Shown here piece after piece: positions 1 through 14,855 of a DNA stretch of 37,040 nt (its first letter is position 1; each line of letters starts with the position of its first letter). The position numbers and the translations under genes are program-made. Below the pieces are notes generated by a model that saw nothing but the letters and a program-made list of their open reading frames with translations, did no database searches and had not been told where the DNA came from. Source of the stretch: Gemmatimonadaceae bacterium (GTDB lineage Bacteria > Gemmatimonadota > Gemmatimonadetes > Gemmatimonadales > Gemmatimonadaceae). The stretch lies in NCBI GenBank assembly GCA_013813715.1, contig JACCRF010000007.1, forward strand, positions 1-37,040, in the 5' to 3' direction.

Positions 1-620
1 GTCCCGGGATACGGGTTGGGAATAACCCTTTCGCGATGAAACTCCGGCCGGTTTGCCGTCATCCAGTTTGTAAATGAGCGATGCCGCACGTGCTGCGACT
101 CGACCTTGTCCACATCCGTTGAATAGACAATGAGGTAACGGGAGGCGGAGTCGCAGAGGTGCTTCATATACCGCTCGAACATGCGATCGGCCACGATGTG
201 ATAAATCACGTCCAGAGAAAGTGCGAGGTCGGCGCGGAACATATGCAACGGGTCCTCGAACGCTTCGGGGTCATAGATGAAGAAAGTCTTCGTGCGATCG
301 TCGCGAAATCGATTGATGCAGCGCTCAACGGCCGAAGCCGAAACATCGAGGCCGACGTAAGCGGGATAGCGCATCAGCGATAACTGGTTTCCGTCCCCGC
401 AGCCGAACTCGATCGCTGAGCGGACATCGTGCTCTCGAACGAAGCCATTCACCACATCTGCCTTGAACTCGGCCAACAGGCCGTAGGAACCGTCGCCGGA
501 CGTGCCGCCGGCCGCGTAGCGCTGTTCCCAGTATCGGGTGGCGTCGAACCGGGCCCCCCGCGAGCCACGCCGGAGCATCCGGGCAGCGTCCGCGACCAGC
601 CTGATGATGCTCTCCTTCAC
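1..620 (-). CDS. Class I SAM-dependent methyltransferase (partial, 3' end outside window)
   Basis: My translation of the minus strand from a GTG at 620 stays open for about 206 codons to the window edge, so the C-terminus is missing. A glycine-rich SAM-binding motif I, EFGCGDGNQL, lies near residues 71-80. An acidic residue follows at the end of the next strand (YVGLDVS, about 88-94), and LALSLDVIYHIV (about 134-145) resembles motif IV. This is the Rossmann-fold class I methyltransferase pattern. The GTG overlaps the TGA of the upstream glycosyltransferase in a GTGA at 617-620, which supports both the start and translational coupling. As the last visible gene of a polysaccharide operon, it probably methylates a sugar, perhaps at the chain end. 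The substrate cannot be read from the sequence. The family call is fairly sure and the role is inferred. Confidence 0.8.
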   Translation of the reverse strand, partial: MKESIIRLVADAARMLRRGSRGARFDATRYWEQRYAAGGTSGDGSYGLLAEFKADVVNGFVREHDVRSAIEFGCGDGNQLSLMRYPAYVGLDVSASAVERCINRFRDDRTKTFFIYDPEAFEDPLHMFRADLALSLDVIYHIVADRMFERYMKHLCDSASRYLIVYSTDVDKVESQHVRHRSFTNWMTANRPEFHRERVIPNPYPG

Positions 621-1750
621 CTTGCTCCCCTGACTGCCGCCTGCATCACGCCCAGTTCCCTCTCGACGACTTGATCGATTCCGCTTTTCCTTCGAATGTC
701 TTCGGCGGCCTTGTGAGACATGCGGGCGAACAACCCGGGCTCGAGGTACAGGCGGCACATTGCCTCGACGATTCCCTTGCTTCCGTCGGTCAGGAACCCT
801 GTCTCACCATCCTTGACGAACTCGGGAATGGCGGTGGATCGCGATGTAATGGGCACCAGGCCCGACGACATCGCCTCGCACATCGAGACGCCCTGGGCAT
901 CCTGCCGGGTCGGGCAGAGCATCACTCCGTGCGCGGCGTGAAGATCGCTGATCTCGGCGTGCGTCAGATAGCCCTCCCTAATCGTCACGTTCGCGAGATG
1001 CCGAAGGGGCCGGGTCAAGCCGTCGAACAGTCTTCCGCGCCCATGGATCGAGAAGCTGAAATTGTGGAACTCAGGGTGACCGGCAAAACGCCGGATCGCC
1101 GCAATCGCGATGTCATTCGCATACTTTCGCGAGTCGAACGAGCGTATGAGGAGCACTCGCGTGCGAAATGACGGATCCTTTTCAGTGTAGGGGAATCGCA
1201 CCGTATCGATCGGATTCGGAATGATCTCATACGACGGCGCACGGGTAAGCGTGTCGGCCTCGGCGATCCGCCTCATCCAGTCCGAGACGAACACGAACCG
1301 CACCTTTCCGGGATAGCGTTGTGCGTAACGGAGGAGTTTTCTGAACCGCCCCTGCTGGATAGTACCGTACTTGACGTAGTGCCAGAACTCCCGAGAGAGC
1401 GCGAAGTTGAAGAGGCGCCGGTACCATCCCATGGCTTCAACGCCATGAACCCAGACGACAATGGGCGCCGTGAGCCGCTGAAACACCTTTCGCAGCATCC
1501 AGCCCTGAAAGAAATGAAGGGCCACCACATCCGGTGCGAACTCGTCGATGTGCGAGTTGAGCGTCGCCAGATCAGGCGCGCAACGCACCTGCACGCCATC
1601 GAAGGTGTAGTCCGGCATTGGGGTAAAGAAGGCCACCACTCTTACTGAGTGTCCGAGCGAGAGATAGCGGACAACGCGGACATGCACGAACACGTCGCCG
1701 TAAAGGTTCTCCGCATGGGGATAGTTTGCGTCGAGCACCAGGATTCGCAT
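617..1750 (-). CDS. Glycosyltransferase, family 4 type (GT-B fold)
   Basis: The 377-residue product reads as a GT-B retaining glycosyltransferase. The N-terminal acceptor domain starts MRILVLDANYPHAENLYGDV. IPNPID (177-182) sits at the domain junction. The C-terminal nucleotide-sugar domain has TRQDAQGVSMCEAMSSGLVP (281-300), the usual E-x7-E-like region of GT4 proteins. It is cytoplasmic or membrane-associated and would add one sugar to the lipid-linked chain. No transmembrane segment is evident. The ATG lies 12 bases after the wecB stop, and the TGA overlaps the GTG of the downstream methyltransferase. Donor and acceptor cannot be assigned. The length is normal for the family. Confidence 0.88.
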   Translation of the reverse strand: MRILVLDANYPHAENLYGDVFVHVRVVRYLSLGHSVRVVAFFTPMPDYTFDGVQVRCAPDLATLNSHIDEFAPDVVALHFFQGWMLRKVFQRLTAPIVVWVHGVEAMGWYRRLFNFALSREFWHYVKYGTIQQGRFRKLLRYAQRYPGKVRFVFVSDWMRRIAEADTLTRAPSYEIIPNPIDTVRFPYTEKDPSFRTRVLLIRSFDSRKYANDIAIAAIRRFAGHPEFHNFSFSIHGRGRLFDGLTRPLRHLANVTIREGYLTHAEISDLHAAHGVMLCPTRQDAQGVSMCEAMSSGLVPITSRSTAIPEFVKDGETGFLTDGSKGIVEAMCRLYLEPGLFARMSHKAAEDIRRKSGIDQVVERELGVMQAAVRGAR

Positions 1751-1762
1751 GCGACGCGCGCC

Positions 1763-2917
1763 TCAGCCTGCCGAAGCGGGTGCCGGAGAAAGCCGATTGG
1801 CCACCACGGCATGGATGCGCTCGGCCGCGTGGCCATCGCCGTATGGATTGCGGGCTTGTCTCATTCGATCGTACAGCGCGGCGTCGCTCCAAAGCGCGGT
1901 TGCCTGACGAACGATCTCCTCGGTCGATGTGCCCACCAGCCTGGCGTTGCCGGCGGCGATTCCCTCGGGGCGCTCGGTCGTGTCGCGCATGACGAGCACC
2001 GGCCGCCCCAGTGACGGCGCCTCCTCCTGTATTCCGCCGGAGTCGGTGAGAATCAGGTATGACCGTTCCATCGCTCGGCAGAAGCTCACGTAATCGAGCG
2101 GTTCAGTCAGGTGCACGTTGTCGCAGCGCTCCAGGAGTGGTAGTACCGTCGCGCGAACGTTCGGGTTGTAGTGGAGCGAGAATACGACCAGCGCTCCGGG
2201 AAGCTGCGCGATCCGGGCGACCGCCGCGCAGATGGACGCCAGCCCCTTGTCATGGTTCTCGCGGCGGTGCGCGGTCACCAGAACAAGTCGCTTCGCCGCC
2301 AGCTCGTGCTCCGGAATAAGGGCGCCTGAAAGTGAGCGGAGCGCCAGCGCGGTATTGCGCTGGCGTCGGACAGTGAGGAGCAGCGCGTCGATTGCGGTGT
2401 TGCCGGTCACATGGACGCTTGCGCCGGCCACCCCTTCCCGGAGCAGGTTATCTCTCGCCGCTGTCGTCGGCGCGAAGTGCAGGTCGGCGATCGATCCGAT
2501 CAAACGGCGATTGATCTCCTCCGGGAACGGGGAGTACTTGTTGTCCGTTCTCAGCCCTGCCTCGACGTGGGCGACGGGGATTCGCCGGTAGTAACTCCCG
2601 AGCGCTCCGACCATTGCGGTCGTCGTGTCCCCCTGTACGATGACGAGGGACGGCGTCGTTGCGCGGTACAAGTCATCGAGTGCGTCGAGCACACGAGCGC
2701 TCAACCCGGCAAGCGTCTGATTTTCGCCCATCAGGCCGAGTTCGCGATCGGGCGACAGCCCGAACGCATCGAAGGCCTGAGCCAGCATTTCTCGATGCTG
2801 TCCGGTCGAGCAGACATGGATGGAGAAATCGGGGCTTTCGCGAAACCGCAGTATCACCGGCGCGAGCTTGATCACCTCGGGCCGCGTCCCGAGGACGAAC
2901 ATCACCGTGGGTTTCAC
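1763..2917 (-). CDS. wecB: UDP-N-acetylglucosamine 2-epimerase, non-hydrolysing
   Basis: The enzyme interconverts UDP-GlcNAc and UDP-ManNAc in the cytoplasm. All the family landmarks are visible in 384 residues: GTRPEVIKLAP near the N-terminus (10-20), TGQHREML (38-45), the QGDT loop (95-98), HVEAGLR (117-123), PFPEEINR (130-137), TGNT (171-174), HRREN (217-221), TDSGGIQEE (291-299) and RDTTERPE (311-318). The GTRPE and TGQHREML forms match WecB. The WbpI-type epimerases that act on diacetamido-uronates begin differently, so UDP-ManNAc is the expected product. Its ATG overlaps the TGA of the upstream GT2 gene (ATGA, 2914-2917). A dehydrogenase such as WecC is not seen, so ManNAc may be used directly or oxidised by an enzyme outside the window. 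Confidence 0.95.
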   Translation of the reverse strand: MKPTVMFVLGTRPEVIKLAPVILRFRESPDFSIHVCSTGQHREMLAQAFDAFGLSPDRELGLMGENQTLAGLSARVLDALDDLYRATTPSLVIVQGDTTTAMVGALGSYYRRIPVAHVEAGLRTDNKYSPFPEEINRRLIGSIADLHFAPTTAARDNLLREGVAGASVHVTGNTAIDALLLTVRRQRNTALALRSLSGALIPEHELAAKRLVLVTAHRRENHDKGLASICAAVARIAQLPGALVVFSLHYNPNVRATVLPLLERCDNVHLTEPLDYVSFCRAMERSYLILTDSGGIQEEAPSLGRPVLVMRDTTERPEGIAAGNARLVGTSTEEIVRQATALWSDAALYDRMRQARNPYGDGHAAERIHAVVANRLSPAPASAG

Positions 2918-3852
2918 GGCTCGCTGGTCGATTGGGAAGGGGATGTCCGGGAGTCCGGACGAAGGCGTTTCCAGGCGAACCGGGCGATCGCACCCGTCGC
3001 CAGTGACGCGCGCCTGCGGTATCTGCCCGCGAGCTGGATGCCGCCTTTACCGCGAAGAAAAAGCCAGTAGTTACGAGCCCGTTTGCTCGACACGCGGGCA
3101 AGCGCCGCGTCGCGCTCCGTCTCGCTGAGGGGACATTCTTCAGCGCGAAGCGCGGCGATCTCTTCGTCCTCGCGCATCGCGATCCACTCTACTCGATCCT
3201 GGGTGTGCTGCTCCTGTCCCGCGTGTTGGCGATCCCACAGCAGGTCCGTCGGCATCTTCACCACAGCGAAGCGTGAGGCCAGCTTAAGCCAGAGCTCGAC
3301 GTCACCGATATAGCGGCGGCCGGAGAACCCACCCACCGCCTGAAATGCGGAACGGCGGATGATAGCGGAGCCCGGAGCGCGTGAAAGCAGGTCGGCGTGG
3401 AAGAAATGCTCCCGATACGCCGCGGCGGAGCTCAACACCAGCGGGCAGGGGCCGCGAGTATCGGGGACCGAGGACAGCCCCAGTCCCGCCTCGGGGAAGG
3501 CCTCCATGCACCTGACCATCACCTCCAGCCCATGAGGGTAGATCAGGTCGTCGGAATCGACGTATTTCAGGTACGCCCCAAGGGCGTGCCCGGCCGCACG
3601 GTTCCGGTTTGGAAAGTCGCCGATATTCGACTCGTTCTGGAATACTCTGACGCGCGCGTCCCGCAGCCGGTAATCTCGCGCGATGGCGACCGTCCTGTCG
3701 CTCGAACAGTTGTCCACGACGACGAGCTCCAGGTCATCGAGAGTTGAGCGCAGAACGCTGTCGATAGACTGGGCGATGTAGGCCTCGCGATTGTACGCCG
3801 TCATCAGCACGCTGACGAGCGGCACACGGGGTGTCGAGCTGGAGTGGCTCAC
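2914..3852 (-). CDS. Glycosyltransferase family 2
   Basis: This is a GT-A fold inverting glycosyltransferase. From the chosen start it is 312 residues. VSVLMTAYNREAYIAQSIDS (about 13-32) opens the domain, VVVDNCSSD (44-52) forms the nucleotide site, and YVDSDDL (97-103) carries the metal-binding DxD-type motif. The open frame extends to a TTG at 3900. I prefer the GTG at 3852 because it overlaps the stop of the upstream gene in a GTGA (3849-3852), the same arrangement as at 617-620, and because the extra 16 residues look unlike a GT2 N-terminus. The C-terminal quarter is basic and may lie against the membrane. It sits between a double-GT2 gene and wecB. The transferred sugar is unknown. Confidence 0.87.
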   Translation of the reverse strand: MSHSSSTPRVPLVSVLMTAYNREAYIAQSIDSVLRSTLDDLELVVVDNCSSDRTVAIARDYRLRDARVRVFQNESNIGDFPNRNRAAGHALGAYLKYVDSDDLIYPHGLEVMVRCMEAFPEAGLGLSSVPDTRGPCPLVLSSAAAYREHFFHADLLSRAPGSAIIRRSAFQAVGGFSGRRYIGDVELWLKLASRFAVVKMPTDLLWDRQHAGQEQHTQDRVEWIAMREDEEIAALRAEECPLSETERDAALARVSSKRARNYWLFLRGKGGIQLAGRYRRRASLATGAIARFAWKRLRPDSRTSPSQSTSEP

Positions 3853-5879
3853 GTGGGCCGCAATCCGCTGGTTTTTTGAGGAATTGGCGGAGTACCACAA
3901 TAATGCTCGTGAAGCTCTTCCAATCGGGCGGTTCCTCCAGTTGCCGCTTCCCGGAATGCTCTAACAGCTGAGCGCGCGGCGCGGTGGTTCCGCCATGCGT
4001 ACGCGCTCCACGAAGCCCGCTCCCTCCAGCTGAGTCTATGCTGTCGGATTACGACCGAGAATGCCCGCAGAAGCGGCACAGCAAGCTTCGGCTCGTCGTA
4101 CAGGTACCCAAAGCTCCGATAGCGATGGTACATGGCGCTGAGCGTACGCTTGAACGTGAACTCCGGCGTCTCGGTGTGAAAGTGATAGACTCTGGCGGCC
4201 GGATTGTAAACGAGCGCATGGCCAGCGCGGAGCGCGTCCTTGGCCCAGATGGCATCCTCCGCAAATGTGGTGCGCCGAAATGGGATGCGCAGCACGACGT
4301 CACGCCGGTAGAGAGCGGTGACGTCATCCCAGGAGCACGCCTTCAGCTTTTCAGCCGGTGCCAGTCGGTCGAACTGTTCCTCCGAAGAGAATTGGACGCG
4401 CTCGAGCCGGGGCTCGGAGATCGGCCGGAACCATTCGGCCGGATTGGCGTCGCGCTCGTGGGGAACCACCTGCGCTCCGCAGACCCCGACGACCTCAGCG
4501 TCAATCACCCCCTGGAAGAGCCGCTCGATCCAGCCGGCGTCTGCCGGACGGGCGTCTCCGACTGTAAGTACAACCCAGTCGCTGGTCGCGCTGCGCACAC
4601 CCAGGTTGCGCGTCTCTCCGTGGTTGAATTCGGCCACATCGATGGCGAGCACGCGGACTTCTGGATAGCGACTCAGTATCTCCAGCGTGCCGTCGGTCGA
4701 TCCCGAATCGATGACGATGATCTCTCGCACCTTGATCGTCTGGTTGAGAATCCCTTCGATGCAGGCCGCGATTCTGCCGGCCTCATTCCTAACGGGCACG
4801 ACGACTGAAACGGAACCGGCGGGCTCAACGCGCCGTCGATCGGCCGCAATTCGGTCTCTCGTCGCCACGCGAATTCGACCGAGTGTGGACTTGGCTGAAA
4901 ACGCGCTGGCGAGCTGATCGCGCATGCGTTGAACCGCGGGAATACGGTCGAGGCGAGACGCGCGGAACAGCTCTGCGAACCGGAGACCCCGGGCCTCGCG
5001 GGGGGAAAGCACCCCCTCGCGCAGGCCCCACTCACGCATTTCGCGCGCGAGATCAAAGTTGTTTGTTCCAATCGCGCCTAGAACAACGCTGGAGCAGAAG
5101 TAGCGAACCTGGGGAACCAGCTCGGCGCGACCGAGCTGCCGCAGCGTCGCGACCGCCCGTCGGGCGACGGCACTGCGGCTCTCGAGCTTCTCGCGCGACT
5201 GGTACGAGCCGCGGCTGAGGCTCGCGTCGGTCTCCCGGATAAAAACGTCGGGGCGCAGATCCAATCGCTTCGCGTAGCGATATCCGCCGGCAAAAGCCCG
5301 CAAATGGAGCTCGATGTCCTGCCACAGCCGGAGCTGCTCGTCCCACATCCCTGATCTTCTGAACGAATCGCGGCGCCAGAGCGTACCGGTGCCCTGGCAG
5401 ATGGGATCCAGTCTGAGGAGTCGAACCAGGTCGTCCTCCTCGGTGTCGACATTCCAGAGACGGTCGGCGGTGCGGGCGTCGTCCTGAAAGAGGAGCATCG
5501 GAAACACGGCGAAGTCGAGATGCGGATTCTCATCCATGACCGCCAGCCGCTGTTCGATGCAGAACGGCGCAAGCAGGTCGTCGGTGTCGAGGAACATCAC
5601 GTAGCGGCCGCGGCCGTTCTCGACCGCGATGTTCCGACAGGTGCACGCCCCTTTCGGCTCGCGAGCACGCGTGATCAACCGGACGCGGGGATCGCGCCGC
5701 GCGTACCCGGCGATCACGGCGACGGAGTCATCGGTGGAGCCGTCCTCGACGATCAGCGCTTCCCAGAGTGGATGGGTCTGCGCCAGGATGGAATCCAGCG
5801 TTTCCGAGACGAGATCAGCCCGGTTGAACGACGGGATGCAGATCGTGACATCCACACTCGAAGCCGAATGCCCGCTCAC
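3849..5879 (-). CDS. Bifunctional-looking protein with two GT2 glycosyltransferase domains
   Basis: This 676-residue protein carries two separate GT2 domains. Domain 1 (about 9-230) has CIPSFNRADLVSETLDSILA, EDGSTDD (45-51), FLDTDDL (96-102) and a later WDEQLRLWQDIEL (179-191). Domain 2 (about 355-600) has SVVVPVRNEAG, DSGSTDG (391-397), FNHGETRN (418-425) and TVGDARPADAGW (439-450). The FNHGETRN element recalls rhamnosyltransferase-like GT2 enzymes. A linker of roughly 120 residues separates the domains. Such tandem enzymes can add two successive residues or act as chain extenders. Which applies here cannot be seen. The start is a GTG 12 bases after the previous stop. Both domains keep their acidic motifs, so neither looks dead. 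Confidence 0.87.
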   Translation of the reverse strand: MSGHSASSVDVTICIPSFNRADLVSETLDSILAQTHPLWEALIVEDGSTDDSVAVIAGYARRDPRVRLITRAREPKGACTCRNIAVENGRGRYVMFLDTDDLLAPFCIEQRLAVMDENPHLDFAVFPMLLFQDDARTADRLWNVDTEEDDLVRLLRLDPICQGTGTLWRRDSFRRSGMWDEQLRLWQDIELHLRAFAGGYRYAKRLDLRPDVFIRETDASLSRGSYQSREKLESRSAVARRAVATLRQLGRAELVPQVRYFCSSVVLGAIGTNNFDLAREMREWGLREGVLSPREARGLRFAELFRASRLDRIPAVQRMRDQLASAFSAKSTLGRIRVATRDRIAADRRRVEPAGSVSVVVPVRNEAGRIAACIEGILNQTIKVREIIVIDSGSTDGTLEILSRYPEVRVLAIDVAEFNHGETRNLGVRSATSDWVVLTVGDARPADAGWIERLFQGVIDAEVVGVCGAQVVPHERDANPAEWFRPISEPRLERVQFSSEEQFDRLAPAEKLKACSWDDVTALYRRDVVLRIPFRRTTFAEDAIWAKDALRAGHALVYNPAARVYHFHTETPEFTFKRTLSAMYHRYRSFGYLYDEPKLAVPLLRAFSVVIRQHRLSWRERASWSAYAWRNHRAARSAVRAFREAATGGTARLEELHEHYCGTPPIPQKTSGLRPT

Positions 5880-5891
5880 GAATGATTCATG

Positions 5892-7139
5892 TCAGAACAC
5901 CAATCCATCGTGAGCGCTACCGGCGACCTGGCTGCGATACCAGGTCTCTTCGGCTACGAGCGCATTTGCCGCGTTGATCGTCCGGGCTTCTTCGTCACTT
6001 CGCGGTGCGTATGAGTTTGTCAGAAATGTGGGCACGTAATCGGTGCTCGCCTCAGGGCCGGCTTCGACTTTGGCCAACATGCCGTCGACTACGTGCTCGA
6101 TTCTGTTGTGCTCGTGGACGTACCGACGGCCTTCTTCGGCGAGCCGGATGCGGAGCTGCAGGTCAGTGAGAAGCGTGCGAAGCCGATCCACGACGTTGTG
6201 CTCGTCTATGCACCACACTGGAGGGCGGAAGCATGCAGGCGAATCCTCTAGATAGCGGGTCGCGACAGCGCAGCCGCTCGCCATTGCCTCGAATGATAAC
6301 CAGCCGGGCCCATGGGCGATCAGTTCGTCAACCAGGACGTCGGCGTCTGTGAGAATCCGCAACAGCTCGTCGTGAGCCGCGTCGCGAACGGAAACGAACT
6401 CGAATCGGATCCCTTCAGCTCGCAGGGTAGCGAGCGCGGCCTCGATCACATCGGTGCCCTTTATGTGAGGAGCGCTGGGAGCGTGCACCACTTTGGGAAC
6501 TGGCCTGCCGGGCACGGCGTGGACGAGGCTGTCGAGACGGAGTGGCACCTGAAGGTGATGATAGGGGCGAAGGGCTAGACCCATCTGATCGGGCACCGAG
6601 AAAATGGCGTCGGAGTAGCGCTCATGGGTTCTCAGGGCCACGACTTTCGCCGCCAGCGGAACATCGAGATACTCCTTTGGAAATTGCCACCGGGCGACCT
6701 CGTACTGGTCACGGAAGACGCCATAGTCGCGGACGTCTGATCCCATGAACAGCGTAGCGACACGGCCGCCCCCGCGCTTGACCGCTTCAAGCCCCTCCCT
6801 GTCGAAGGGAATCATGCCCCAGACTCTGATGTACAGATTGGCGCCGCGAAAGACGCGAGTGCGAAGCCTCCTTTCAACTGCGTGGTGCAATCGCGGATCG
6901 ACCTCCCACAGGACCTGAAAAACGCGCCGCCACAGGCGCCTCATACCGAAGCGCCTGCTGAGAGCGGACACCGGGAAATCATGCTGGTCGTAGTCGTAGC
7001 GGCGCGGAAAAAATCGGTGCTCCATCGCTACGGTGACGACTTCATGACCGCGCCGCTCGAATTCGTCGGCAAGATCCCCGATGACGCCGCAGATTTCATG
7101 ACCGCTGATCACCACCCGATAGCGTGGGGAATCAGGCAA
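5892..7139 (-). CDS. Glycosyltransferase, GT4/GT1-like (GT-B fold)
   Basis: The 415-residue product has a GT-B arrangement. The N-terminal domain begins with a VVISGHEICGVIGDLADEFE strand-loop-helix. The C-terminal domain has VVHAPSAPHIKGTDVIEAAL (217-236), typical of GT4 donor domains, and GPGWLSFEAMASGCAVATR (277-295), the nucleotide-sugar end of the site. The start is TTG at 7139, two bases after the WbpG stop. The N-terminal domain is more divergent than in textbook GT4 enzymes, so the exact CAZy family is uncertain. It probably adds one residue of the repeat unit. Its position directly after the amidino-sugar trio makes it a candidate for transferring that sugar, which is inference from order only. 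Confidence 0.8.
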   Translation of the reverse strand: MPDSPRYRVVISGHEICGVIGDLADEFERRGHEVVTVAMEHRFFPRRYDYDQHDFPVSALSRRFGMRRLWRRVFQVLWEVDPRLHHAVERRLRTRVFRGANLYIRVWGMIPFDREGLEAVKRGGGRVATLFMGSDVRDYGVFRDQYEVARWQFPKEYLDVPLAAKVVALRTHERYSDAIFSVPDQMGLALRPYHHLQVPLRLDSLVHAVPGRPVPKVVHAPSAPHIKGTDVIEAALATLRAEGIRFEFVSVRDAAHDELLRILTDADVLVDELIAHGPGWLSFEAMASGCAVATRYLEDSPACFRPPVWCIDEHNVVDRLRTLLTDLQLRIRLAEEGRRYVHEHNRIEHVVDGMLAKVEAGPEASTDYVPTFLTNSYAPRSDEEARTINAANALVAEETWYRSQVAGSAHDGLVF

Positions 7140-7141
7140 AG

Positions 7142-8386
7142 CTAGGCGACGCTCTCGGCTGCTGGTTCACTCGCTGTCGCCCCGGATGGTTGACGGAGGT
7201 AGCAGGACGGCCTGATGGCGACCATCTGATCGTCCTTCAGCACGCAGTACTTGTGATAGAAGCTTCTCGTCACATAGCCCATTTTGTACAACATCAGGAA
7301 AAGAGGGCGAAGCCTCTCGAACGTCTGCTTGTAGGTGCGATGCCGGGTGTAGTGTGACAGCGGAGCGCACATGACGCGTTCCCATTCCGCGTCCGAGAAC
7401 CCGACCCGCTGCTTGATCTCCGCCAGAATTCCTTCGTCGAAAGGCTTTTGTTCGGCGATTCGCGCCACAGCGTGGGAGCGGGTCAACTGACCCGCGCGTA
7501 TCAGCGCCGAGAACTCCGAGTAGCGAAGGTCGATGCCAAATTTCCGGACGAGGTAATAGTTGTTGGCGAAGTATGCGCTGCGGTTCTCCATGTGATGGCC
7601 GCCGTACCACTGCCATCCGTAAGTGTCGGCAAGAAACCGCTTCGTTCCCTCCTTGTCATAGTCGAAGTAGTAGAGCGGCCTGAACTTCCTGATCTTGTCC
7701 ACGGCCATCCACTTCATCCACCGCGGCAGTGTGAGTTCAGGAAGGGTCCTGATTCGGCCGTCACCGTACTTGCTGTGGATCGTGCGGACGTACTTCGAGT
7801 CCATATAGAACCAGCCCGGCGGCGAGATTCCCTCCGTTCGGAAGGAGTGCCCCTCCCATATCCACTTCACGCCGTGCTTCGCCGCCGCCATGTAGTGCAC
7901 CGCCGCAAGCGCGATGTCGGTGGGAGTGTCGATCTCCGGAACCGACGCGAGAAAAAACGAGCGGTATATCCGCTGGTACTCCTCGTTGTCAACCACATGC
8001 GTGTACAGATCGATGTCGAGCGCCTCGAGAATGCGTTGAATGTTCTCGACGGCGATGCGGGAGTTGTACGTGTTGTCGAAATGCGCGGCGAGCACGCGCA
8101 GGCCGTACTGCTTCTTCGCCAGGTGCAGCATGTAAGACGAGTCGCAGCCGCCGCTAACCCCGATGACGACGTCGTATTGCCTTCCGCGGCCGTCCTGCTT
8201 CATTTGCGCCACGGTGGCCGCGAGGATGTCCCGCCCCGCAGCGCCGGCCGGGTAGTCGCACTCCATTTCCTCGTACTGCCGGCAGTAACAGCACACGCCA
8301 TCGGCGTCGAACGAAATGCGCGGAATCGTCGCATCGTAAATGCAGCGCACGCACTCCTGCAGGGTCTCGAAAGCCGCCAATGTCAA
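7142..8386 (-). CDS. wbpG: N-acetyl sugar amidotransferase (WbpG/PseA-like)
   Basis: The enzyme turns an acetamido group on a nucleotide sugar into an acetamidino group, using ATP and ammonia. Near the N-terminus are two Cys pairs, ECVRC (C12, C15) and VCCYC (C32/C33, C35), likely a zinc knuckle. A PP-loop ATP-binding motif, GVSGGCDSS (76-84), follows, then HFDNTYNS (102-109). KWIWEGHSFRTEGISPPGW, from about residue 175, is a strongly recognisable block of this family. In Pseudomonas aeruginosa O5, WbpG works with HisH2 and HisF2, and the same pair lies directly upstream here. The start is TTG at 8386, overlapping the HisF2 stop as TTGA. The target sugar is not known. Confidence 0.92.
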   Translation of the reverse strand: MTLAAFETLQECVRCIYDATIPRISFDADGVCCYCRQYEEMECDYPAGAAGRDILAATVAQMKQDGRGRQYDVVIGVSGGCDSSYMLHLAKKQYGLRVLAAHFDNTYNSRIAVENIQRILEALDIDLYTHVVDNEEYQRIYRSFFLASVPEIDTPTDIALAAVHYMAAAKHGVKWIWEGHSFRTEGISPPGWFYMDSKYVRTIHSKYGDGRIRTLPELTLPRWMKWMAVDKIRKFRPLYYFDYDKEGTKRFLADTYGWQWYGGHHMENRSAYFANNYYLVRKFGIDLRYSEFSALIRAGQLTRSHAVARIAEQKPFDEGILAEIKQRVGFSDAEWERVMCAPLSHYTRHRTYKQTFERLRPLFLMLYKMGYVTRSFYHKYCVLKDDQMVAIRPSCYLRQPSGATASEPAAESVA

Positions 8387-9141
8387 TCCTCTTCGATGAT
8401 AAGCCGACGCTGTGGGAAGTTAATCAGCACGCCCATCCCCTGTTTCTGGTATACGGCCATACTGCCGAGGGCGGCAGCATTGGCCGGAGTCTCGTCGAGC
8501 ACCTGCCGCAAGTGTCCGACATTCCCGGCTCCGCCGCACGCAATGAGCGGAACTGAAACTGCTTCGGCCACCGTCCTGATCGTCGGAATGTCGTAGCCGC
8601 TCCACGTTCCGTCCCGATCGACGGAATAAAGCAGGAGTTCACCCACGCCGACGTCGTCGGCAAGAAACCGACAGTGCTCGAGCAGACTGCGCTGCGTCTT
8701 TGCCCCCGAAGCGGAATAAACCCGATTACCCCCGAACATTCCCGTCTTGTAGTCGACAGCTCCTACAACGCTGGTTGATCCGTATTGGTGCACCGCACTC
8801 CGAACGAACTCCGGGTCGGTCAGGCAGCGCGTATTCACGATCACCTTCTCGACGCCGATCTTGTAGAGGCGTGAACAGTCTTCAAGCGTTGCCACACCCC
8901 CTCCGTAGGAAAACGGCATGAAGCACTCCGAAGCGCACTCGCGAATGAGGTCAAAGCGCGGCGGCCGTTTTTGCCTGGACGCGTTGATGTCGAGCATGAC
9001 GAGCTCGTCAACCTCTTTCTCGTTGTAGATCTTGATCGCGTTGATCGGATCGCCGATGTACGAGGGATTCCTGAAACGCACAGTCTTCACGAGTGCCCGC
9101 CCGTCGAACAGAAGGCATGGCATTATTCGCTTCAGTACCAC
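8383..9141 (-). CDS. hisF2: HisF-like amidotransferase partner (HisF2/WbuZ family)
   Basis: This 252-residue TIM-barrel protein resembles the imidazole glycerol phosphate synthase cyclase subunit. It carries the marks of the acetamidino-modification branch: CLLFDGRALVKTVRFRNP at 9-26, YIGDPINAIKIYNEKEVDEL and MLDINASRQKRP. Canonical HisF has a catalytic Asp at position 11 (CLD). Here that position is Leu, while the Asp of the second site is kept (VVGAVDYKTG, D130). The protein therefore looks unable to run histidine synthesis and suited to channelling ammonia from HisH to WbpG. The start is GTG at 9141, three bases after the HisH stop. Confidence 0.9.
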   Translation of the reverse strand: MVLKRIMPCLLFDGRALVKTVRFRNPSYIGDPINAIKIYNEKEVDELVMLDINASRQKRPPRFDLIRECASECFMPFSYGGGVATLEDCSRLYKIGVEKVIVNTRCLTDPEFVRSAVHQYGSTSVVGAVDYKTGMFGGNRVYSASGAKTQRSLLEHCRFLADDVGVGELLLYSVDRDGTWSGYDIPTIRTVAEAVSVPLIACGGAGNVGHLRQVLDETPANAAALGSMAVYQKQGMGVLINFPQRRLIIEED

Positions 9142-9144
9142 GGA

Positions 9145-9756
9145 TCAGAGCCCGACGAATCCTTCGAGGAGTGCCATCCCGAAACGGTGGCTTTTCTCGG
9201 GGTGGAACTGGACCCCATAGACATTGTCGTGGTTCACGGCACAGGCGAACTCAAAACCGTACGTTGCGGTCCCGATCGTGTCCTGCGAATCGTCGCACGT
9301 CACATAGTACCCATGCACGAAATAGAAACGGCGCCGGGCGCCACCAGCAATCAGCGGGTTCTCGCGCGAGGGCCTGACGTAATTCCACCCCATATGCGGA
9401 ACCTTCAGACCAGCCTCGCCGGAAAACCGGAAGCGCCGTGTCTCCCCGTCAATCCAGCCCAGCCCGGGTCGCCTTCCTTCCTCGCTGGAACGGGTCATGA
9501 GCTGCATCCCAAGGCATATGCCCAACACCGGCACGCGACGTTCGAGGGCTGCTTCATTCAGAGCGTCGACCAACCCGAAGTCGGCGAGATTCTGCATGCC
9601 CCGGTCAAAAGCGCCAACGCCCGGCAGAATCACCTTCTCAGCGCGCCTCAACACGTCGGGGTCCCTTGTAAGCACGGGTGGCGGGCTGCCAATTCGCTTC
9701 AGCATGTTCGCCACGGACGCGACGTTGCCCATGTCGTAGTCCACTATCGCGATCAT
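9145..9756 (-). CDS. hisH: Glutamine amidotransferase HisH-type (HisH2)
   Basis: A class I glutamine amidotransferase of 203 residues, it hydrolyses glutamine to supply ammonia. The nucleophile Cys81 is in GICLGMQ (79-85), and the His-Glu pair is in GVQFHPEKSH (181-190, H185 and E187). The N-terminus IAIVDYDMGN and LPGVGAFDRGM (44-54) are HisH signatures. Its partners downstream are HisF2 and WbpG, with no histidine genes nearby. It therefore most likely serves the amidino-sugar pathway and is the second HisH of the genome. The ATG overlaps the acyltransferase stop (ATGA, 9753-9756). From its sequence alone it could pass for the histidine enzyme; context decides. Confidence 0.9.
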   Translation of the reverse strand: MIAIVDYDMGNVASVANMLKRIGSPPPVLTRDPDVLRRAEKVILPGVGAFDRGMQNLADFGLVDALNEAALERRVPVLGICLGMQLMTRSSEEGRRPGLGWIDGETRRFRFSGEAGLKVPHMGWNYVRPSRENPLIAGGARRRFYFVHGYYVTCDDSQDTIGTATYGFEFACAVNHDNVYGVQFHPEKSHRFGMALLEGFVGL

Positions 9757-10313
9757 GAACCCGTCCGCTGGCCGGCGCCGTTCCGTTCCCGTATCCGCAG
9801 GACCTTCGCCGGAACGCCTGCAACTACTGCAAAGTCGCGCACGTCGCCCGTCACAACCGCTCCCGCCCCTACCTGAACCCCTTTGCCAATGTGAACGCCG
9901 GGCAGGATCACCGAGCCCGTCCCGAGATCGCAGTCGTCATCGATGGTAACCGAAGCAAATGAAAGCTCACTCAAGAGGATTGGAACATCGGTGCCCTCCT
10001 CCCGATGGAACGACGAAAGGATTTTCACCCCCGGCCCGATACCGACGGTGCGGCCAATCGTGACGCCGCCCGCGCTATGGATGAAGCACTGCTGACCGAT
10101 CCAGGTGTTGTCCCCAATCACGAGGCTGTTTCTATAGTATCCCCTTAGAATCGTCTGGTGCCCGACGTAGACGTTCTCGCCGAGGCTGATGTTCTCGGGA
10201 TGGAACACCATCACCCCAGCCTCGAGCACGACGTTCGAGCCAATCGCGGCAAATGCGCTTCGGTCGACTTCGCCAGTGCCGGCAGACCTGTAAAGCGCGA
10301 CCGGTCTTGGCAC
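9753..10313 (-). CDS. Hexapeptide-repeat (left-handed beta-helix) acyltransferase
   Basis: The product (186 residues from the chosen GTG) is built of [LIV]-G-x4 hexapeptide turns: ISLGENVYVG, LVIGDNTWIG, VTIGRTVGIG, VTIDDDCDLG, VHIGKGVQVG. It ends with the usual GAGAVVTGDV and AGVPAKVLRIR. This is the sugar O- or N-acetyltransferase fold, active as a trimer with acetyl-CoA. The His in FIHSAGG or SFHREEG could be catalytic. The frame extends to 10409, but that extension overlaps the aminotransferase by about 95 bases. The GTG at 10313 starts right after the aminotransferase stop and fits the operon. Sitting next to an aminotransferase, it may acylate the newly made amino group. It does not closely resemble WbpD, and O-acetylation is equally possible. 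Confidence 0.8.
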   Translation of the reverse strand: MPRPVALYRSAGTGEVDRSAFAAIGSNVVLEAGVMVFHPENISLGENVYVGHQTILRGYYRNSLVIGDNTWIGQQCFIHSAGGVTIGRTVGIGPGVKILSSFHREEGTDVPILLSELSFASVTIDDDCDLGTGSVILPGVHIGKGVQVGAGAVVTGDVRDFAVVAGVPAKVLRIRERNGAGQRTGS

Positions 10314-10314
10314 G

Positions 10315-11445
10315 CTAACCGACCAGTCCGAGCACGACGTCAACTGCCGTGCATTGTTCTTCGGGCGTGATGCTCTCGTACAGTGGAAGGGCCAGTGCAG
10401 TGGCCGCAACCGCGTCGGTGACTGGAAAGTCGCCGGCCCTGTGGCCGTAGCGACCGCGAAAAAAAGTGGTGACCGGCATGTGAATGGTACCTAGTTGCGT
10501 TTCGACGTCTGCTGCCTTCGCGCCAGCGATGATTTCGCGCCGTCGCCCCGCCGCGCGTGCCGGCAGAAGCGCAACGTACGACTGGTAGACGTGGTCTGCA
10601 CCAGCAAGTGTGCGCGGCGGCTGCAGTGCGGTGCCCGCAAGCAGTCCGTCGTACACTGCTGCCGCGCGACGCCGCGCGCCAATGACTCGCTCGAGCTTCG
10701 CCATCTGGGTCAATCCGAGAGCTGCCTGAAACTCGGTGAGACGATAATTGTAACCAGGCATCACGAAGTCCGGCGGAGATGCGTCCGGATCCTGTCCGTG
10801 ATTGCGAAGGGCGCGAATACGGCGGGCCAGCGTGTCGTCGTTCGTCGTCACCATACCGCCTTCGCCCGTTGTAATCGCCTTTCGCGGATGAAAGCTGAAG
10901 CATGCCATGGTGCTCCAGCGTCCGGCCTGGCGACCATGCAGAGCGGCTCCCAGCGCGCACGCAGCATCCTCCACGATGGGAATGTCCCATCGCTCGCACA
11001 CGTCGCTCACTCCTCGCATGTCAGCCATCTGGCCGAAGGTGTGAACCGGAAGTACAGCCTTCACCCTTCGAGCCGATTCGGCGCTGGACATGAGCGCCTC
11101 CAGGGTCTTCTCCAGGTGACCGACGTCGATATTGAACGTTTCCGGATCGACATCGACGAACACGGGCCTGGCGCCGCAGAGCTCGATGACGTTGGCGGTC
11201 GAGATCCACGAATATGCGGTTACGACGCACACGTCTCCCGGCTTGACATCGAGCGCCAGCAACGCAAGGTGCAAGGCGCAGGTGCAGTTGCTGACTGCTA
11301 CCGCGTGCGGCACGCCGATCAATTTTGCGACCTCCCTTTCGAAGGCAGCAACACGTGGCCCTTGAACGAGATGGCCAGATGCAAGGGCTTCTCGCACGGC
11401 GAGGAGGTCGTCTTCCTCGATCGATGGCACGGCGAGCCGGATCAT
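10315..11445 (-). CDS. DegT/DnrJ/EryC1/StrS-family sugar aminotransferase
   Basis: A PLP-dependent enzyme of 376 residues, it transfers an amino group, usually from glutamate, to a keto group of a nucleotide sugar. [14 protein letters not shown] (23-36), a serine/threonine-rich phosphate loop in [10 protein letters not shown] (51-60), Asp160 in [10 protein letters not shown], and the Schiff-base Lys189 in [14 protein letters not shown] (185-198) are all present. The N-terminal APS/LVQG and C-terminal layouts are typical of the family. The ATG overlaps the stop of the upstream NAD-dependent enzyme (ATGA, 11442-11445). With that enzyme and the downstream acyltransferase it could make an acylamino sugar for WbpG to amidinate. 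The exact keto-sugar is unknown. Confidence 0.92.
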
Positions 11446-12419
11446 AACCGCGCTGTGAAAAATCCGGGTTGGCTCCGGAAATAATCGGCGGTGAGCCGAA
11501 TTCCTTCTTCGAGGTCGATCTTCGCCTTGAAACCCAGGACCTTGAGCGCCTTCTCGATGCTCGGAACCCGGATAGCGATGTCCGCCGATAGGGGCGGATC
11601 GAACACGATGTCAGCCTCCGACCTCGTGACACGCAGAACCGTTTCGGCGAGCCCGAGAATCGTGATGACAGCTCTGGCGTTCCCGATGTTGAAGCTCTCG
11701 CCGACAGCTGCCGGATCCTCGATGCAGCGCATGAGGCAGTCCACAAAGTCGTCGATGTAGCACCAGGCGCGGATCTGCGCGCCGTCGCCGTCGATGTGGA
11801 TGGTCTCATTGCGCAAAGCGCGCTTCACGAACGTCTGAATCGCACCTTCGCCCGTCTGGCCGGGTCCGTATACGTTGAACGGCCGGACGGTCACTACCGG
11901 CAGTCCGTATTGGGCGAAGTACGCGTGGGCCAAATGCTCACCAGCGAGCTTGCTCACGGCGTAGGTCCAGCGTGCTTCTCCCGCAGAGCCAGCTACCGTC
12001 GCGTCGGTTTCGGTCGACCGGAAAGCCATCGCCCCGAAGACTTCGGAGGTCGAGAAATCGACCACTCGGTCTCCCACACCGTGCGCGTGCGCCGCTTCGA
12101 GAACGTTAGCCGTTCCAATCATGTTCACCCGCATCGTACTTACCGGGCTCTTGATGACGGTATCGATGCCGGCGATTCCGGCCGCGTGGATGACGATGTC
12201 AGCAGCGTTCATCGCGTTCGAAAGCCGCTCCGAATCGAGAACGTCACCTTCGATGACCGTAAGGTTTGGATGCCGGAGCAAGTCTGGGAGGTCCTTGAGC
12301 GTACTCCGTGCCATGTTGTCGTACGCGACTATGATGTTCCGGTCGATCAGCTTGCCGATGATCGTCGAGCCAATGAAGCCCGCCCCGCCTGTCACGAAAA
12401 TGCGCCTGTTTTCAATCAA
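11442..12419 (-). CDS. NAD-dependent epimerase/dehydratase (extended SDR)
   Basis: A cytoplasmic sugar-nucleotide enzyme of 325 residues. The NAD-binding motif [10 protein letters not shown] (9-18) is followed by acidic D34 in VAYDNMAR, which favours NAD. The catalytic YAVSK (Y153, K157) and the upstream STSEVFG (123-129) are the usual SDR active-site elements. PFNVYGPGQ marks the extended UDP-sugar family. Possible activities are 4-epimerisation, 4,6-dehydration or decarboxylation, and the sequence alone does not decide. It starts with TTG at 12419, 12 bases after the wzt stop, and overlaps the aminotransferase gene by four bases. If it makes a keto-sugar, the next gene would aminate it. Confidence 0.88.
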
Positions 12420-12431
12420 AGTCGGGTGTCG

Positions 12432-13760
12432 TTATCGTGGTGTGCCATTGTCTGACTCGGACGGAAGAACCGGAGCCGTCCATCGCTGGGCCGGACGAAG
12501 GTACCCGCGCACCGTCCACGGATAGTGGGCGGGGTCATCGCTCCCCGCGTTCAGAACCTCGAAGTCGAACGCACGCTCAACGAAGTCTACCGTGGTTCCG
12601 TCCATCCGATGAATGCCAGCGAGCAGTGAATAGCGCCCTGGGAACACGGTATCCTGGATTTCGAGCCGGATTTCATGCGGGCCATGTTTCATATCAATCG
12701 GAGGCGCGCCGCCGTCGCTCGAGAACGACTGCGTGATCTGACGGCCTTCCTGGTCGTTGATGCCCACCTCGATCATCGCCCGGGCGAGCGGCTCCGCGAC
12801 CTCCCATTGGACACGCACGTGGATCGGCTCTCCGGTGACTACTGCCTGCACCACGCTTCCCCCGCGATCGATAATCTGGACGCTTCTCAGCTCGGCCTCG
12901 CCCGTCGCGTACTGACGGGGAAGGTCACGGGGAATCGTACCGTTGAAAGCATCGCTCCCTGCTCCAATGTACTCGCCCACCGCCGCCTCCACGGTGCCCC
13001 AGCAACGAAGCCTTCCGCTTTCGAGGTATAGCCCCTTGCTGCACAAGGCCTTCACCGCGGCGATGTTGTGGCTGACGAAAAGGACCGTCCGCCCGTCGTG
13101 CCGTGAAACGTCTTTCATCTTTCCCAGACACTTTCGCTGAAACTCAAAATCGCCGACAGCCAGCACCTCGTCGACAACAAGAATCTCGGGCTCGAGGTGT
13201 GCCGCGACTGCGAAGGCCAGCCGCACGTACATGCCCGAGCTGTACCGCTTGACCGGCGTATCCAGAAATTTGTCGATCTCGGCGAAGGCAACGATCTCGT
13301 CGAACTTCGCCTTGATCTCCGATCTCGTCATTCCGAGAATCGAACCGTTGAGGAAGATGTTCTCCCGGCCGGTGAGCTCGGGATGAAACCCCGTGCCTAC
13401 CTCGAGCAGGCTTGCCACGCGGCCGCGAATACGCACACGCCCGGTCGTCGGCTCGGTGATTCGCGAGAGAATCTTCAGCAGCGTGGACTTGCCCGCACCG
13501 TTGCGTCCGACGATTCCAAGGACTTCACCGCGCGCGACCTCGAACGAAACATCCCTGAGGGCCCAGAATTCCTCGACTTCGTCTCCCTGAATTATCTGGC
13601 GTCCCCGCGCCATATCCGCCGTCTTACGCGCGAGATTCTTCGCTTGCCTGACGAGCGAATCCCGCAGGGAGCCGTAGCGCTCGGGGCCGGCCGATTCGTG
13701 GCCAACGAGATAGCTCTTGGAAAGGCCCTCGACCGTGATTACGGCGTCCTGAGCGGTCAT
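12432..13760 (-). CDS. wzt: ABC polysaccharide exporter ATP-binding subunit with C-terminal carbohydrate-binding domain
   Basis: The 442-residue protein has an ABC domain with Walker A GRNGAGKS (85-92), a signature region YSSGM (173-177), Walker B ILVVDEVL (193-200) and the switch His231 in VSHN. FWALRDVSFEVARGE and ASLLEVGTGFHPELTGREN are typical of Wzt/TagH exporters. From about residue 290 comes an extra beta-rich domain (VTGEPIHVRVQW, then DTVFPGRYSLLAGIHR) that matches the Wzt C-terminal domain. In studied O-antigen systems this domain recognises the modified non-reducing end of the chain before export. It pairs with wzm, 58 bases upstream. The methyltransferase at the end of the operon may provide such an end mark, which is inference. 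Confidence 0.93.
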   Translation of the reverse strand: MTAQDAVITVEGLSKSYLVGHESAGPERYGSLRDSLVRQAKNLARKTADMARGRQIIQGDEVEEFWALRDVSFEVARGEVLGIVGRNGAGKSTLLKILSRITEPTTGRVRIRGRVASLLEVGTGFHPELTGRENIFLNGSILGMTRSEIKAKFDEIVAFAEIDKFLDTPVKRYSSGMYVRLAFAVAAHLEPEILVVDEVLAVGDFEFQRKCLGKMKDVSRHDGRTVLFVSHNIAAVKALCSKGLYLESGRLRCWGTVEAAVGEYIGAGSDAFNGTIPRDLPRQYATGEAELRSVQIIDRGGSVVQAVVTGEPIHVRVQWEVAEPLARAMIEVGINDQEGRQITQSFSSDGGAPPIDMKHGPHEIRLEIQDTVFPGRYSLLAGIHRMDGTTVDFVERAFDFEVLNAGSDDPAHYPWTVRGYLRPAQRWTAPVLPSESDNGTPR

Positions 13761-13818: not shown

Positions 13819-14658
13819 TCAAATCAGGTCCGCGAACGTTTTCTCGACCTTCCTGAACTGGCGGATGCCCAGCCACAGAAAGAAGCCCACGCCGAAGAGG
13901 CTGAGCCCGAAGCCCGGCCAATAGATGTTGCTTTCGCCTCCCAGAATGCACCAGCGAAAACCGTCAATAACGCCTACCAGCGGATTTAGTGAATAGAGCA
14001 GACGCCAGGCATCAGGCACCACCTTCGAGCTGAAGCCCACCGGGGAAATGTAGAGTCCGAACTGAACAACGAATGGAACAACGTACCGGAAGTCGCGGTA
14101 CTTCACGTTCGCGGCCGTGATCCAGAGCGCGGGGCCGAGTGCTGCGAGGATCGCAACGATTACGAAGGCCGGCAGGAGCACTATCTGCCATCCCGGCAAG
14201 AATCTGTACCAAGCCATCATCGCGATGAGAATCGCGAAACTGATGAGAAAGTCGATGAACGCCACAACGATCGTCGCCGCCGGTACGATCAGGCGCGGGA
14301 AATAGACTTTGCTGATGAGATTGGCGTTGCTGATCAGACTCGCAGAGGCATCTCCGAGCGCCGTCGAAAAGAATGTCCAGGGAAGCATCCCCGAAAAGAC
14401 CATCAGGGCGTAAGGGGCGTTGCCTTCGGTTGGCAGCCGCGCGATCCGGCCGAAGATTACCGTGAAGACAATCATCGTAAGGAGGGGCCGGATGACGGCC
14501 CACACGACGCCGATGACCGTCTGCTTGTATCTCACCGAGACGTCGCGCCACGCAAGCACCTGGAAGAGCTCGCGGTAATGCCACAGGTCTCTCCAGTAGT
14601 TTCGCTCCGATCTACCAGCCTCCAGGATGATTTCCATGATCGGCATAAAGCTAGTCAC
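13819..14658 (-). CDS. wzm: ABC-2 type polysaccharide exporter permease
   Basis: This inner-membrane permease moves undecaprenyl-diphosphate-linked polysaccharide across the membrane together with Wzt. The 279 residues contain about six hydrophobic segments. The cytoplasmic N-terminal helix is followed by WRDVSVRYKQTVIGVVWAV, the standard ABC-2 polysaccharide exporter block. A later YRDFRYVVPFVVQFGLYISP, close to residues 190-210, is another family hallmark. The first start is GTG at 14658 with a GAGAG just upstream; in-frame ATGs at 14646 and 14637 are alternatives. It is the first gene of the long minus-strand operon and faces a divergent promoter region. The family call is secure. Confidence 0.93.
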   Translation of the reverse strand: MTSFMPIMEIILEAGRSERNYWRDLWHYRELFQVLAWRDVSVRYKQTVIGVVWAVIRPLLTMIVFTVIFGRIARLPTEGNAPYALMVFSGMLPWTFFSTALGDASASLISNANLISKVYFPRLIVPAATIVVAFIDFLISFAILIAMMAWYRFLPGWQIVLLPAFVIVAILAALGPALWITAANVKYRDFRYVVPFVVQFGLYISPVGFSSKVVPDAWRLLYSLNPLVGVIDGFRWCILGGESNIYWPGFGLSLFGVGFFLWLGIRQFRKVEKTFADLI

Positions 14659-14855
14659 GACTCTCGACAGCAGTGACAGGCTGAGAGGGAACGTAACCGG
14701 GGGGCGTGCTTCTCCCTGACCCTACTCGTTTATATTTGAGAGACTTACGGGCAACATCGCGGGCGCCGAGAATCCGGTCCCTTCCCTTGGCGGTCGTCCG
14801 CAATCGTGCGACGCCCCTCCCTCTCCAAAATTCGGAATTCTGCCCTCCTCAACGC
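14659..14855. promoter_or_regulatory. Divergent promoter region between wzm and the carbamoyltransferase
   Basis: These 197 bases separate the starts of two divergent polysaccharide transcription units, so both promoters and any shared control site should lie here. An AT-rich patch, TTTATATTTGA at 14729-14739, stands out and could supply a -10 element on either strand. I could not find a matching -35 hexamer at 16-18 bases, so no exact promoter is called. The sequence just before the carbamoyltransferase ATG is pyrimidine-rich and has no Shine-Dalgarno match. Confidence 0.4.

Follow-up and report, generated by a model that had tools for sequence, protein, structure and literature searches.

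We analyzed a 37,040-nucleotide stretch of DNA from a Gemmatimonadaceae bacterium (contig JACCRF010000007.1 of assembly GCA_013813715.1; the whole stretch is hereafter called the window), in which the genes of an amidotransferase trio, HisH, HisF2, and WbpG, lie within a cluster for a polysaccharide exported by an ATP-binding cassette (ABC) transporter. The cluster probably directs the synthesis of an acetamidino-2,3,4-triamino-trideoxypentose for the exported glycan. The sugar receiving the amidine is most likely a triamino-pentose formed by decarboxylation of uridine diphosphate (UDP)-2,3-diacetamido-2,3-dideoxyglucuronate (UDP-GlcNAc3NAcA), and not a hexuronate, pseudaminate, or legionaminate. 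We propose this route of decarboxylation and C4 amination because of a short-chain dehydrogenase/reductase (SDR) and an aminotransferase encoded next to the trio, the titles of related structure entries including that of Pcryo_0616, and the O-antigen sugar of Psychrobacter cryohalolentis.

A preliminary description of the window had located the trio exactly, with a gap of 3 bases between HisH and HisF2 and an overlap of 4 bases between HisF2 and WbpG. Its assignment to an acetamidino-type system in an ABC-export operon agrees with the family models, the motifs, and the upstream Wzm and Wzt genes. It took the genes for the receiving sugar to be absent and overlooked three genes directly upstream of HisH, for the SDR, for a sugar 4-aminotransferase, and for a hexapeptide acyltransferase, which form one gene string with the trio. 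Its suggestion of a sugar other than the familiar ones is probably right. The SDR and aminotransferase genes overlap by 4 bases, as do the acyltransferase and HisH genes. The reading frame of the acyltransferase is open from 10409, and with its likely GTG start the distance from the aminotransferase gene is about 1 base.

The SDR was compared with solved structures by sequence search. The best match was 8vr2 (428.6 bits, 58% identity across the aligned part), and the runner-up scored 135 bits. The title of 8vr2 names the oxidoreductase/decarboxylase Pcryo_0617 of P. cryohalolentis K5 in the presence of nicotinamide adenine dinucleotide (NAD). The SDR is predicted to be a UDP-sugar decarboxylase of the Pcryo_0617 type. 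If it were instead a 4,6-dehydratase, the sugar would be a 4-acetamidino-4,6-dideoxyhexose resembling bacillosamine or Qui4N. This is improbable: among NCBIfam models the SDR fits dTDP-glucose dehydratase (161 bits) and LegB (142 bits) best, and the aminotransferase resembles the PseC, perosamine, and ArnB types, but both scores are far below the cut-offs of 365 and 475, the kinship with 8vr2 is threefold stronger in bits than that with any dehydratase, and the gene occurs in rows with wbpA/B/D/E. A plain dTDP-sugar dehydratase was rejected because the SDR scored so far under the model cut-off.

The best PDB sequences for the aminotransferase, at about 240 bits, were 9bgp/9bgr from Vibrio vulnificus, the top match, and 8vr3/8vr5 (Pcryo_0618, about 36% identity), with ArnB at 191 bits and WbpE at 180 bits. 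The title of 9bgp/9bgr, which is incomplete, refers to an enzyme for the biosynthesis of '2,3-diacetamido-4-amino-2,...'. Pcryo_0616, whose tag directly precedes that of Pcryo_0617, is entitled an aminotransferase for UDP-N-acetyl-3-amino-D-glucosaminuronic acid.

The proteins of the trio were examined by profile search. WbpG scored 219.8 bits against the WbuX model TIGR03573 (cut-off 203.2) and retains the PP-loop SGGxDSS and the four-Cys N-terminal motif. HisH scored 222.6 bits against TIGR01855 (cut-off 105.4), with residues Cys81, His185, and Glu187 intact. The top model for HisF2 was NF038364 (AglZ/HisF2), 59 bits ahead of all others, although the score of 309.7 bits was 0.3 short of the cut-off of 310. 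In all 16 aligned rows, HisF2 carries Leu at the position of Asp11, the catalytic (cyclase) residue of HisF; the position was cross-checked against a HisF-LUCA alignment. Such a loss would be expected of a protein that has given up imidazole-ring formation and acts as an ammonia-channel partner. Another genome of the same genus (L039) has the identical gene order at 69–85% identity, and therefore the arrangement of the trio is not due to chance.

A whole-genome search of the source genome (G000) found no ordinary histidine HisF or HisA; its only two strong HisF/HisA-type genes, in the window and on contig C77, are both of the HisF2 type. The organism may be a histidine auxotroph, or the assembly may have a gap. 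This lack of another candidate and the passing of the general HisH model are what could be said for HisH and HisF2 as histidine biosynthesis genes placed here by chance, an idea that is extremely unlikely and already contradicted by the missing Asp11, the top score on the AglZ/HisF2 model, and the presence of HisH and HisF2 with WbpG in all 15 relatives described below.

A WbpG scan yielded 15 loci with WbpG proteins 51–77% identical to that of the window. In this comparison of gene content, which the preliminary description had recommended, the SDR, HisH, and HisF2 were found at all 15 loci and the aminotransferase at 14, the contig of L019 being cut. The SDRs of the 14 relatives aligned were 67–72% identical to the window SDR (the partial SDR of L019 was left out). 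In the tree, 17 SDR-linked WbpG proteins formed one clade with support of 100/96. The WbpG of L030, although SDR-linked, fell outside this clade together with two WbpG proteins that do not have this SDR next to them (L066 and L067).

The acyl slot between the aminotransferase and HisH was variable among the 15 loci. It held a hexapeptide protein in ten and a formyltransferase in four (L016, L024, L025, and L028); these calls were made with Pfam for L019, L024, L025, and L038 (the upstream part of L016) and judged from sequence for the other loci. Neither type was present in L020, the locus of the cultured relative Chryseosolibacter histidini PWU4, where the region 4678–7331 in the acyl slot encodes an SDR, a phosphoesterase-like protein, and an ATP-grasp-like protein (named by eye) and no acyltransferase. 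WbpG hardly changed across the swap: L025 and L029 are 87% identical, as are L028 and both L023 and L029, and the WbpG proteins of the formyl-type L025 and L028 are 84–87% identical to most acetyl-type neighbors in their group. Formyl and acetyl types were intermixed in the clade. Because WbpG is nearly unchanged across the swap, the N4 group is probably not its target; the comparison suggests that WbpG does not act there, and N2 or N3 is favored over N4 as the amidinated nitrogen.

We searched the genome for the genes of the precursor. The window is the entire contig C181, and its left end, reversed, is identical to the opening 127 bases of C77; a predicted methyltransferase open reading frame (ORF) stays open across this overlap, and a homologue 64% identical in L068 likewise lies between the corresponding glycosyltransferase and a second WbpG. 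After the end of the methyltransferase, C77 starts with a second WbpG, a WbpB-like gene, WbpD, and WbpE, and a WbpA/B/D/E block is present on C132. The preliminary description had held that a full WbpA/B/D/E/I or pseudaminic set just outside the window would make this an ordinary known pathway, and had advised a search for wbp and nonulosonate genes. That search recovered these WbpB/D/E and WbpA/B/D/E sets, together with NeuB genes on C77, which bears out the objection in part; no WbpI-type epimerase and no NeuB were found in the window. The wbp genes on C77 and C132 read better as a supply of the precursor UDP-GlcNAc3NAcA.

Alternatively, the trio could amidinate UDP-GlcNAc3NAcA or its manno epimer, as relatives of WbpG do in Pseudomonas O5, and the glycan could in addition contain a pentose without an amidine, built separately by the SDR, aminotransferase, and acyltransferase. 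We regard this as the main rival because both WbpG proteins may draw on one HisH-HisF2 pair, yet as rather unlikely. WbpB/D/E abut the window and WbpA/B/D/E occur on C132, as this route would need, but the second WbpG, only 36% identical to that of the window, is the one located with WbpB/D/E, the clade of the window WbpG follows the SDR (15 of 15 loci; clade of 17), and no WbpI-like epimerase was found in the window.

The second WbpG of C77 (L011:393-1586) retains the PP-loop; in it and in the second WbpG of L068 (L068:14465-15568), both from Gemmatimonadota genomes, two Cys of the usual four-Cys N-terminal motif are missing. Two WbpG paralogues with a single HisH-HisF2 pair in the stretch read were also seen in L022, L026, and L027 (the second WbpG at approximately 14.4–15.6 kb), an arrangement that matches the gene cluster of the window. 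A third amidotransferase on C77 is accompanied by its own HisH and HisF2-type protein beside NeuB genes.

The chances are about even for a wider proposal, in which an undescribed acetamidino 2,3,4-triamino-2,3,4-trideoxypentose is made by a mobile cassette, its N4 is capped with an acetyl or formyl group, and one HisH-HisF2 pair may feed two different WbpG proteins of the cluster so that two different residues are amidinated. Members of Gemmatimonadota, Bacteroidota, Rhodothermota, and Desulfobacterota carry the cassette. A plasmid search with the SDR returned 13 records, every one below 60% identity.

The wbp genes also stand in row with the SDR elsewhere. L021 has the order wbpA-wbpB-aminotransferase-SDR..hisH-hisF2-wbpG, with its WbpB at 390.7 bits to 3oa2, and L038 has wbpB-wbpD..wbpE..wzm-wzt-aminotransferase-SDR-formyltransferase-hisH-hisF2, after which comes wbpG, as read in L068. 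WbpB-like matches were obtained in 15 of 16 genomes by either of two queries, but only 12 genomes had the match next to the SDR or within a recognizable wbp row (G000, G001, G004–G010, and G013–G015); those of G003, G011, and G012 were lone or unread. On the contig of L024, a WbpB-like gene (G009:C93:46-1023) contains an internal TAA. Co-occurrence of WbpB and the SDR in genomes was dropped as proof, as WbpB is common in the family.

We also surveyed genomes with the SDR, and not WbpG, as the query. The SDR turned up in 7 of the 395 genomes from the window's phylum, 4 of 395 of the phylum of the Polaribacter locus, and 4 of 365 of the phylum of the Desulfobacula locus, each count including the query genome; by coordinates, G192 is the genome of L016. 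Among the nine genomes in which WbpG was not seen, G351 is represented by a 5.4-kb contig, G123 ends 1.5 kb past the aminotransferase, and the SDRs of G176 and G266 are only 43–44% identical. Three of these nine have the precursor genes in row: wbpA followed by wbpE-wbpD-wbpB-aminotransferase-SDR in L063 (G619), wbpE-wbpD-wbpB-glycosyltransferase-aminotransferase-SDR in L070 (G1120), and SDR-aminotransferase-acyltransferase..wbpA..wbpD-wbpE in L071 (G865). Because the precursor genes stand in row with the SDR at loci without WbpG, the basic pathway seems to be the one to the pentose, with amidination as an addition.

Several observations weigh against an amidinated pentose as the product. The 15 loci were chosen by WbpG; in the three SDR surveys, WbpG was near the SDR in 6 of the 15 genomes with a match (G000, G142, G192, G006, G009, and G1132). 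The SDRs of L063 and L025 share 80% identity, and no WbpG occurs in the stretch of L063 that was read; thus, the pentose also occurs without amidination. The second WbpG beside WbpB/D/E could use the HisH-HisF2 pair on UDP-GlcNAc3NAcA. WbpB of the C132 type occurs in 158 of the 395 genomes of the phylum and therefore proves little, being family background, and the two-query genome search found no convincing WbpB in G002. The structure model of the SDR had a predicted local distance difference test (pLDDT) score of 64.6; because of this low confidence its fold scores were set aside, and only sequence identity and the title of 8vr2 were counted. The lead of the aminotransferase match over perosamine synthase is small (240 vs. 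221 bits), and its fold Z scores were tied with those of perosamine synthase and ArnB.

In the pathway that we infer, WbpA, WbpB/WbpE, and WbpD, encoded on C77 and C132, would produce UDP-GlcNAc3NAcA. The SDR would oxidize C4 with NAD, and the carboxyl carbon would be lost as CO2 to give a 4-keto pentose. The aminotransferase would then place an amino group on C4, giving the L-arabino form if P. cryohalolentis is taken as the model, and the hexapeptide enzyme would acetylate N4. HisH would release ammonia from glutamine and HisF2 would hand it on to WbpG, which may activate one N-acetyl group of the pentose with ATP and convert it to an acetamidine. Glycosyltransferases would attach the sugar, and Wzm/Wzt would export the chain.

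The proposed system was compared with known ones. Pseudomonas aeruginosa O5 has a WbpG-HisH2-HisF2 acetamidino system. It shares the three enzyme families with the window, and WbpA/B/D/E-type genes are present in the genome of the window; in contrast to O5, the WbpG clade of the window is tied to the SDR and 4-aminotransferase, and a WbpI-like epimerase is not in the window. In the WbuX/WbuY/WbuZ FucNAm systems (Escherichia coli O145-type), the receiver is a 6-deoxyhexose amidinated at C2; these share the amidotransferase model TIGR03573 with the window but differ in the receiver. According to the available text of PMC8040287, the O-antigen of P. cryohalolentis contains 2,3,4-triacetamido-2,3,4-trideoxy-L-arabinose. 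Its Pcryo_0617 and Pcryo_0618 correspond to the SDR and aminotransferase of the window, with the WbpE-type step Pcryo_0616 tagged just before. However, its sugar as named has no amidine, whereas the window adds HisH-HisF2-WbpG, and the acyltransferase of the window is of another sort, with only 43.6 bits to 8vr6. Cluster B of Sphingomonas, as described in the available text of PMC11340318, has WbuX, HisF2, and HisH in a single glycan cluster, next to genes for an SDR, an aminotransferase, an acetyltransferase, and an MviM-type dehydrogenase. The resemblance lies in the kinds of genes; that text does not name the sugar.

In the available text of the literature examined, including PMC11676643, where UDP-ManNAc3NAmA is named, and PMC9912281, which gives shifts near 2.2/20 ppm for an amidine methyl, the amidino sugars named are hexoses, hexuronates, or nonulosonates. 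We found no description of an amidino triamino-pentose in searches of one open-access library; the parts are known, and their combination was not found there. If the proposal is true, such a pentose, in which an amidine is one of three nitrogen groups, would add a new kind of cationic unit to those from which glycans are built, and the SDR-trio cassette would be a genome marker for it. The cassette would also offer a clean test of the nitrogen choice of WbpG, because the N4 cap is swapped naturally while WbpG is nearly constant.

Table 1 Predicted genes of the amidino-sugar cluster in the window.
Feature	Position	Strand	Evidence
Wzm, ABC-2 membrane subunit	13819..14658	minus	PF01061 75.3 bits
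Wzt, ATPase with C-terminal sugar-binding (Wzt_C) domain	12432..13760	minus	PF00005, PF14524
SDR, predicted UDP-GlcNAc3NAcA decarboxylase, Pcryo_0617-like	11442..12419	minus	8vr2 428.6 bits
DegT-family sugar 4-aminotransferase, Pcryo_0618-like	10315..11445	minus	9bgp, 8vr3, 8vr5 ~240 bits
Hexapeptide acyltransferase, predicted N4-acetyltransferase	9753..10313	minus	PF00132; likely GTG start 10313
HisH, predicted glutaminase giving ammonia	9145..9756	minus	TIGR01855 above cut-off
HisF2, predicted ammonia channel partner	8383..9141	minus	NF038364 309.7/310, PF00977
WbpG/WbuX N-acetyl sugar amidotransferase	7142..8386	minus	TIGR03573 above cut-off
Glycosyltransferase	5892..7139	minus	PF13524
Glycosyltransferase with two GT2 domains	3849..5879	minus	PF00535, two stretches
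GT2 glycosyltransferase	2914..3900	minus	PF00535
WecB/MnaA-type UDP-GlcNAc 2-epimerase	1763..2917	minus	TIGR00236 459.9 bits
GT4 glycosyltransferase	617..1750	minus	PF13692
Predicted methyltransferase (named by eye)	1..620	minus	continues into C77, stop at base 179

Wzm and Wzt are encoded upstream of the SDR, and the glycosyltransferases and WecB downstream of the trio. WecB scored 361 bits against 1o6c vs. 147 bits against the UDP-2,3-diacetamido-GlcA epimerase 8sxv. It was the sole candidate for a WbpI-type 2-epimerase in the window (coverage of the C77 side was limited to ORF starts), and a local WbpI was rejected as WecB is MnaA-like. A pseudaminic or legionaminic route in the window was rejected since no NeuB/PseI/LegI synthase occurs there; the nearest matches are at C77:39055 and C77:51002. 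A NodU-type carbamoyltransferase is encoded at 14706-16607 on the plus strand of the window and thus shares its contig with the SDR, and homologues 64–70% identical are also on SDR contigs at L041:2039-3778 and L072:14093-15835, making three Gemmatimonadota genomes in all.

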